Positions 23,685-50,099 of a DNA stretch of 50,099 nucleotides are shown piece by piece. Both the position numbers and the translations under genes were made by a program. The first letter of the stretch is position 1; every line of letters begins with the position of its first letter. Below the pieces are notes generated by a model. It was not told the DNA's origin, searched no databases, and worked only from the letters and a program-made list of their open reading frames with translations. This stretch comes from Elusimicrobiota bacterium. GTDB lineage: Bacteria; Elusimicrobiota; Endomicrobiia; Endomicrobiales; Endomicrobiaceae. The stretch is from contig JAFXOV010000012.1 in the NCBI GenBank assembly GCA_017528425.1, positions 1 to 50,099 on the forward strand, read 5' to 3'.

Positions 23685-23747
23685 TTATTTTTATTAAAAA
23701 AATGGTAAAATATGAGAGTATAAAATCACAAGTTACGGAGACCTGTC

Positions 23748-24719
23748 ATAAAAACTTTTATAGAAAACTTTCTATCATCAATAAATTGTAATTATAAGCT
23801 GGGTGAACCGTTATCAAAACATACTACTCTTTGTATCGGCGGTAATGCCGATTTTTTTGTTGAAGTCGAAACGGAACAACAGTTAATATCTTTGCTGAAA
23901 TTTATAAAAGAAAACAATATAAACTTTTTTGTTATAGGCGGCGGATCGAACATTTTGTTTGGTGACGACGGTTTTAGAGGAATAGTAATAAAATTATCAT
24001 TAAATTCCACAAGTGAGTTTGGACGTATCGAAGGGTTTAAAACCGGAGATGTGGAAGCTGCACCAAACGAGATTGAAATAACAGCAAAAGACAGTGTTTC
24101 GAATACCGTAAGTGTTTGTTGCGGGGCGGCGGTAAGTTTGGCTTATTTGGCAATAAAAACCGCAGAACAGGGCTTAAGCGGGCTTGAACAAATTTCTGCA
24201 ATACCGGGAACAATCGGCGGTGCTGTGTTCGGTAATGCCGGCGTAACAAACTGTTCCGTATCCGACGTTGTTGATAAAATAGAAGTTATAGATTATTCAG
24301 GCAACAAAAAGGTTTTAACTAAGAAAGATATCAAATTTGAATACAGAAAAAGTGACTTACAAAGCAACATTATAACCAAGGTGTTTTTTATCTTGAAAAA
24401 AGCTGATAAAAATGATATTTTAAAGACGATTTCACAAGAGCTTAAGAGAAGAAAAAGCACACAGCCGCTTGGCACTAAAAATGCCGGTTGTGTATTCAAA
24501 AATCCGAAAGATGACAGTGCAGGTCGTCTGATAGACTCTTTAAAACTTAAATGTTACAGCGTTGGCGGCGTGGAAATATCCGATGTGCATGCAAATTTCT
24601 TTGTTAACAAGAACAACGGTTGTGCCAAAGATATGTTGAACTTAATTGAATTTGTAAAAGATGAAGTTTATAAAAAATATAACATAAAACTTGAAACGGA
24701 AATAAAGATAATAAAATGA
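23748..24719 (+). CDS. murB: UDP-N-acetylenolpyruvoylglucosamine reductase MurB, apparent ATA start
   Basis: 323 residues if started at ATA 23748. FAD enzyme that completes UDP-MurNAc. The family N-terminus LSKHTTLCIGGNADFFVEV (about 21-39) and the FAD loop VIGGGSNILFGDDGF (about 63-77) are present, then SGLEQISAIPGTIGGAVFGNAG and the type-I catalytic block QPLGTKNAGCVFKNP with SAGRLID. The first ATG/GTG/TTG in frame with a good upstream context is TTG 23892, which would remove the conserved N-terminus. The frame is open back to a stop at 23721-23723 and contains no ATG, GTG or TTG there. GGAG (23737-23740) sits 7 nt before ATA 23748, an ideal spacing. The end overlaps ddl by 4 nt. Confidence 0.88.
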   Translation: MKTFIENFLSSINCNYKLGEPLSKHTTLCIGGNADFFVEVETEQQLISLLKFIKENNINFFVIGGGSNILFGDDGFRGIVIKLSLNSTSEFGRIEGFKTGDVEAAPNEIEITAKDSVSNTVSVCCGAAVSLAYLAIKTAEQGLSGLEQISAIPGTIGGAVFGNAGVTNCSVSDVVDKIEVIDYSGNKKVLTKKDIKFEYRKSDLQSNIITKVFFILKKADKNDILKTISQELKRRKSTQPLGTKNAGCVFKNPKDDSAGRLIDSLKLKCYSVGGVEISDVHANFFVNKNNGCAKDMLNLIEFVKDEVYKKYNIKLETEIKIIK

Positions 24720-49841: not shown

Positions 49842-49870
49842 TTGACTTTTTAAAATAATTTATTTATAAT
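49842..49870 (+). promoter_or_regulatory. infC promoter
   Basis: TTGACT (49842-49847), exactly 17 nt, TATAAT (49865-49870). Transcription should start near 49877, giving a leader of about 155 nt before the start codon. Confidence 0.85.
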
Positions 49871-49892
49871 AATCGAACTAAATTGGTAAAGA

Positions 49893-50002
49893 AGTCGTCC
49901 CGACTCACCTTCACCTTATTTTTAGGGAAAAGGTTTTAGACATTTAGAGTTATATGTTTTTATATAGGGACGGGTATCTTTATCCGTTCTATTTTTATTT
50001 TT
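49893..50002 (+). promoter_or_regulatory. infC leader with attenuator-like terminator
   Basis: Three competing structures. A 5' hairpin AGTCG-tcc-CGACT (49893-49905). A terminator-like hairpin with ACGGGTA (49970-49976) and TATCCGT (49981-49987), extendable by three pairs to 49967/49990, followed by ATTTTTATTTTT. A possible anti-terminator, CGTCCC (49896-49901) with GGGACG (49967-49972), that would break both. This suggests transcription attenuation ahead of infC; sequence-based inference only. Confidence 0.5.
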
Positions 50003-50037
50003 GCAGGTGAAAATCCTGCGAGGGGGATTGTATAGAT

Positions 50038-50099
50038 ATTCGAAGATATCGTACTAATCAGTACATAAGAGTACCGGAAGTAAGACTTATTGATGAAAA
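50038..50099 (+). CDS. infC: translation initiation factor IF-3, 5' end only, non-ATG start
   Basis: Runs off the window. The frame translates as RRYRTNQYIRVPEVRLIDE, the family N-terminus (compare N-x-x-IRAxEVRLID). The frame is open only back to 50011 after TGA 50008-50010 and contains no ATG, GTG or TTG, so translation must start at ATT 50038 or ATA 50032; both are non-standard. The ribosome site GAGGGGG (50020-50026) lies 5-8 nt before ATA and 11-14 nt before ATT. E. coli infC uses AUU, which lets IF-3 repress itself, so ATT is taken as the annotated start with ATA as the alternative. rpmI and rplT usually follow. Confidence 0.85.
   Translation, partial: MRRYRTNQYIRVPEVRLIDE

Follow-up and report, generated by a model that had tools for sequence, protein, structure and literature searches.

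Codons that match the initiator anticodon badly are selected against by IF3. The IF3 gene, infC, starts at AUU in E. coli, where IF3 represses its own synthesis (PMC5472188), and AUU is also described as the infC start codon of B. subtilis (PMC1805508; PMC6097659) and Listeria (PMC13068326). In S. aureus, retapamulin profiling (Ribo-Ret) places the infC start at AUA, with a strong Shine-Dalgarno sequence (PMC13009471). Streptomyces infC is given an ATC start, and the GTC start of a second Streptomyces gene, sigR, is repressed by IF3 (PMC5472188). The L20-leader RNA of B. subtilis is described as narrowly distributed, within the Firmicutes (PMC6097659).

The DNA analyzed here (the window, 50,099 nucleotides) is contig C21 of a 2.08-Mb Elusimicrobiota assembly of 64 contigs, and its 3' end, at 50099, falls within infC. 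The last 132 bases are identical to the end of contig C64, where infC is complete (184 codons from stop to stop, 177 counted from ATA) and is followed by rpmI and rplT. Because both contigs belong to one assembly, this overlap is not an independent read of the start. The whole protein matches TIGR00168 with 211.7 bits (cut-off 60) and also matches IF3_C, and its identity as IF3 is thus backed by two profile libraries. The nearest named relatives by IF3 identity are Candidatus Ruminimicrobiellum (Elusimicrobiota), at 97% and 96%. The frame is preceded by a stop (TGA, 50008-50010) and reads, from 50011, AAA TCC TGC GAG GGG GAT TGT ATA GAT ATT CGA AGA TAT CGT ACT AAT CAG. Read directly, it contains no ATG, GTG or TTG between this TGA and the conserved IF3 core TNQYIRVPEVRLID. 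The initial annotation had reported an infC without a canonical start codon, with ATA at 50032 and ATT at 50038 as candidates. Both codons stand where it placed them, and the missing canonical start is confirmed up to the core. The features of the locus are collected in Table 1.

Table 1. Features of the infC and murB regions of the window (positions in the window).
Feature	Position	Strand	Basis
Candidate sigma-70-like promoter, TTGACT-17 nt-TATAAT, upstream of leader	49842..49870	+	read directly; comparable boxes at this site in relatives within the genus
L20-leader-like transcription attenuator (putative)	49883..50001	+	RF00558, 43.4 bits, E 2.9e-7
Leader first stem, AGTCG/CGACT	49893..49905	+	readable cells all paired in 21 sequences; UA/CG both-sided change in 6
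Terminator stem (49967-49974 with 49983-49990) and T tract	49967..50002	+	97.6% of cells paired; both-sided changes in 4/8 pairs
Stem TTGCAGG/CCTGCGA, 3' arm adjoining Shine-Dalgarno	50001..50021	+	arms coevolve between genera
Shine-Dalgarno GAGGGGG	50020..50026	+	GGAGG-type match, 13/14 points; spacing to ATA 5 nt
Proposed infC start codon ATA	50032..50034	+	column [AG]T[AC] in 68/68 order genomes; ATG in L083, L093
infC (IF-3), 5' part, continues on contig C64	50032..50099	+	TIGR00168 whole-protein match; contig overlap
murB Shine-Dalgarno-like GGAGA, 6 nt before ATA	23737..23741	+	read directly
murB, proposed ATA start	23748..24719	+	NF010480, 298 bits; ATT/ATG/ATA start column in relatives

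Sequence comparison indicates that infC almost certainly starts at ATA 50032, since this codon follows a strong Shine-Dalgarno sequence by 5 nt, aligns exactly with the ATG of two further Endomicrobia, L083 and L093, and stands in a conserved column. The same evidence bears out the earlier proposal of AUA as the likely start. The Shine-Dalgarno score is at least as high as that of 29 of the 30 ATG genes in the window scored in the same way. The anti-Shine-Dalgarno of this genome is assumed, because no SSU (16S) match was found in the assembly.

Of 340 genomes of the phylum, 304 gave an infC match in a protein search, and 110 of these were read (30 loci returned by the search and 80 fetched regions). 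Within the order Endomicrobiales, 73 genomes had an infC match and 68 were read, that is, all but G266, G273, G280, G285 and G292. Aligned on the core, these 68 carry GTC (34), GTA (17), ATA (16) or ATC (1) at the column of ATA 50032, and NTG in none. All nine genomes of the genus that were read, the window included, share the ATA and so fall in the AUN class of start codons; GUC or GUA occupies the column in 51/68. This prevalence of GTC and GTA over AUN among the relatives was invisible to the initial annotation. A Shine-Dalgarno sequence of the GGAGG/GGGGG type lies 4-6 nt before the column in 65/68 genomes, the exceptions being L136 (7 nt, best match AGAGG), L137 (3 nt) and L154 (8 nt to its ATA). 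As controls, rpmI starts with ATG in 29 and GTG in 1 of 30 family loci (L004-L033), and rplT with ATG in all 28 of these loci that could be read. Position 50031, just before the infC start, is C or T in 68/68 genomes. Elsewhere in the phylum, loci of family f18 suggest ATC. The non-canonical start is not universal, as families f15 and f16 appear to use ATG and TTG, respectively. The alignment with relatives and the start-codon survey that had been proposed for this gene have thus yielded a weak start column across the order, with two families apparently on canonical codons.

The history of the column was followed on a rapidly built maximum-likelihood IF3 tree that left out the start column. 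The start codon changed at least 15 times within the order (6 changes at the first base and 11 at the third), and every change remained among AUA, AUC, GUA and GUC. The 11 third-base moves were all between A and C, which has a chance of about 1 in 180,000 if the three alternatives were free, a figure that ignores tree error and transition bias.

The explanation that most probably accounts for this locus combines a weak AUA start, through which IF3 would repress its own synthesis, with a transcription attenuator that would sense L20. The near-perfect Shine-Dalgarno sequence would position the ribosome 5 nt upstream of AUA 50032, a codon whose third position pairs poorly with the CAU anticodon of fMet-tRNA. 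Because of this poor pairing, initiation would be weak and would depend on the occupancy of the 30S subunit by IF3. Plentiful IF3 would lead to rejection of AUA and a decrease in IF3 synthesis, and scarce IF3 to an increase. As a second control, the leader attenuator would set transcription of infC-rpmI-rplT according to L20. GUC and GUA are mismatched with the anticodon at positions 1 and 3, and to judge from the alignment, most of the order would use them. IF3 self-repression, which the initial annotation brought up from E. coli infC, is supported as the natural interpretation of the infC start.

Between the terminator and the Shine-Dalgarno sequence lies a short stem that may separate the latter from the U-rich terminator tail. 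Its arms are TTGCAGG/CCTGCGA in several members of the genus and TTCGGAT/GTCCGAG, TTGGCT/AGCCAG and others elsewhere. Over 68 rows, in which L146 has no stem and L126 has a short upstream stretch, the stem scores 7.04 vs. 5.58 for shuffled sequences (sd 0.22, 50 shuffles). Native arms score 12.0 vs. 7.4 for arms swapped between genera (18 genera, Wilcoxon p 0.001; 62 distinct rows, with L126 and duplicates left out). Under the latter score, four of the 62 rows lack the stem (L010, L020, L029 and L146); a long insertion appears to separate the two arms in L010.

The leader precedes infC-rpmI-rplT and closes with a terminator, as is expected of an L20_leader. Across 21 aligned leaders, pairing is kept in 98.4% of 250 cells of the first stem and terminator, two-sided changes occur in 5 of 12 pairs, and none of 500 shuffles reached the covariation score of the stems. 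Its RF00558 score of 43.4 bits falls short of the gathering cut-off of 58.7 bits, and across the phylum, 87/340 genomes reach an E-value of 0.001 or lower, whereas 0/340 exceed the cut-off. The order accounts for 44 matching genomes, and in 33 of them the match lies, by our own reading, within about 70 nt upstream of infC. The leader thus gives the impression of functioning as an L20 leader, yet it is no member by the Rfam criterion. Four strongly reduced genomes, of 0.4-0.6 Mb and from genus g3 (L142, L147, L151 and L159), show no L20-leader motif by eye and have tRNA-like or unrelated sequence upstream of infC, where the leader seems to have been lost. Despite the absent motif, all four keep a strong Shine-Dalgarno sequence and a weak infC start. 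RNAalifold pairs a leader ACCTT with the infC Shine-Dalgarno sequence. An L20-like leader in Elusimicrobiota would extend the distribution of this RNA beyond the Firmicutes range stated in PMC6097659. No report of an L20 leader in Elusimicrobia was found among titles and abstracts, a search that covered subscription journals thinly.

Other placements of the start can be weighed against the same alignment. ATT 50038 would give an AUU start as in E. coli, and in the alignment it would give the same N-terminal length as IF3 structures from species that we take to be Geobacillus and Thermus. However, this codon lies 11 nt from the GGGGG of the Shine-Dalgarno sequence (50022-50026), and its column is AAC in 39/68 order genomes and ATT in 8/68. 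Column conservation and spacing tell against it, and it is rejected as a very unlikely start; it does not deserve the equal rank that the initial annotation gave it. Starts further upstream could draw on the in-frame NTG codons that precede the column in 36/68 relatives. However, in 30/68 genomes, the window among them, the stretch from the last in-frame stop to the core is free of NTG, in two more the sole such codon is an ATG inside the core, past the column, and in the close relative L123 the upstream ATG of its neighbors falls out of frame. The out-of-frame TTG 50028, which would need a frameshift, opens a frame of only nine codons that TAA 50055-50057 closes, and codons of this sort stand in different frames in different relatives. 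With no in-frame NTG and an early closure of the TTG frame, upstream and frameshifted starts are rejected for the window as extremely improbable. The site is 68 bases from the contig end, where a sequence or assembly error might have removed an ATG, an outcome that had been named as fatal to the claim. This is contradicted by the column, which holds no NTG in 68 genomes, and an error is excluded by the identical start codon in 8/8 other genomes of the genus, which leaves it a negligible chance.

A different objection accepts AUA as the start and questions its purpose. The weak codon might merely keep IF3 low, without feedback, and drift among weak codons would follow if high IF3 is harmful. 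A conserved weak start does not by itself demonstrate feedback. On the other hand, IF3 feedback through such codons has been demonstrated in E. coli, and the GTC start in Streptomyces is repressed by IF3 (PMC5472188). A near-optimal Shine-Dalgarno sequence would also be odd if low output were the sole aim. A weak start without feedback is thus improbable, and self-repression by IF3 through AUA is the preferred reading.

The initiator tRNA is a possible partner of the weak start. A review describes its three G-C pairs as highly conserved across all domains of life (PMC7949028). Discrimination against CUG is lower when pair 30-40 is changed (PMC11497404). In all ten order genomes searched, the anticodon stem is AGG/CCU (A29-U41), not GGG/CCC. 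ARAGORN identifies eight fetched copies (L224-L231, about 1471-1555 in each) as tRNA-Met(CAU). Mycoplasmas and some alphaproteobacteria are exceptions to the three G-C pairs. In the window's own genome, the canonical GGG/CCC pattern gave no match and a looser pattern found the A29-U41 form. It occurs twice in the assembly (G000:C34 and G000:C43); one copy stands 4 bases from a contig end, and the pair may reflect overlapping contigs. Among 48 further genomes of the phylum, 36 matched (AGG/CCU in 31, GGG/CCC in 3, from f12, f14 and f15, and 2 apparently spurious) and 12 did not. Altogether, 58 genomes were searched, with A29-U41 in 41, GGG/CCC in 3 and no usable match in 14. It is conceivable, though doubtful, that Endomicrobiales combine infC starts on AUA, AUC, GUC or GUA with the A29-U41 tRNA in a shifted set-point of IF3 feedback, with murB and perhaps further genes in an IF3-tuned set. 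If so, a weaker grip of the tRNA would relax start-codon scrutiny, and IF3 would need a still poorer codon on its own gene. The link between A29-U41 and the infC starts is only suggestive and is weakened by family f16, in which A29-U41 goes with a TTG start of infC.

murB had been named as a second likely AU(A/U) start within 50 kb, and comparison with relatives agrees. The window's murB frame has no NTG before the conserved sequence. In 29 anchored murB genes from 30 family loci (one locus lacked the anchor), the column of ATA 23748 holds ATT in 11, ATG in 10, ATA in 2 and other codons in 6, which supports a second weak start; two genomes of the same genus as the window (L202 and L203) have ATG. 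In the rows compared, a visible Shine-Dalgarno sequence is mainly a feature of the ATT class, which, unlike the ATG class, tends to be preceded by GGGAGA or GGAGA. Standard gene callers likely misplace the infC start in this order and the murB start in several genera.

A gut bacterium and its relatives would thus begin the IF3 gene at a codon that IF3 normally rejects, a trick that is itself known. The initial annotation held that its conservation in a distant lineage would be notable. The weak starts are present here, yet they are less surprising given those described in E. coli and Streptomyces (PMC5472188), B. subtilis (PMC6097659), S. aureus (PMC13009471) and Listeria (PMC13068326). At least 15 changes within the rejected class, in the gene of the start-codon inspector itself, amount to natural evidence that a weak start is under selection, and AUA, AUC, GUC and GUA form an allele series for testing how IF3 reads codons. 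GUC or GUA infC starts and Endomicrobium infC were not found reported in titles and abstracts, with subscription journals thinly covered.

The window's infC belongs to a known kind, of which the order-wide GUC/GUA starts, the stem at the Shine-Dalgarno sequence and the L20-like attenuator make a variant. It resembles E. coli infC in a start outside NTG and in the order infC-rpmI-rplT, which we take to be that of E. coli. It differs in its AUA instead of AUU, in the GUC, GUA and AUC of its relatives and in the leader attenuator upstream, and feedback here is inferred. The closest overall architecture is the B. subtilis operon, with an AUU start and an L20-interacting leader; both have a non-canonical start and a leader terminator before infC, but the present leader falls short of the Rfam threshold. 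The stem adjoining the Shine-Dalgarno sequence is conserved among the Endomicrobiales genomes. S. aureus infC shares the AUA start and strong Shine-Dalgarno sequence (PMC13009471); it belongs to another phylum, and its start was mapped experimentally, whereas the one proposed here comes from sequence. In Streptomyces sigR, IF3 controls a GTC start (PMC5472188), and the same is proposed for infC in most Endomicrobiales, but GTC there starts a sigma factor gene, whereas here it would be the start codon of IF3's own gene. What is unfamiliar is the set of codons and their repeated change, not the mechanism.
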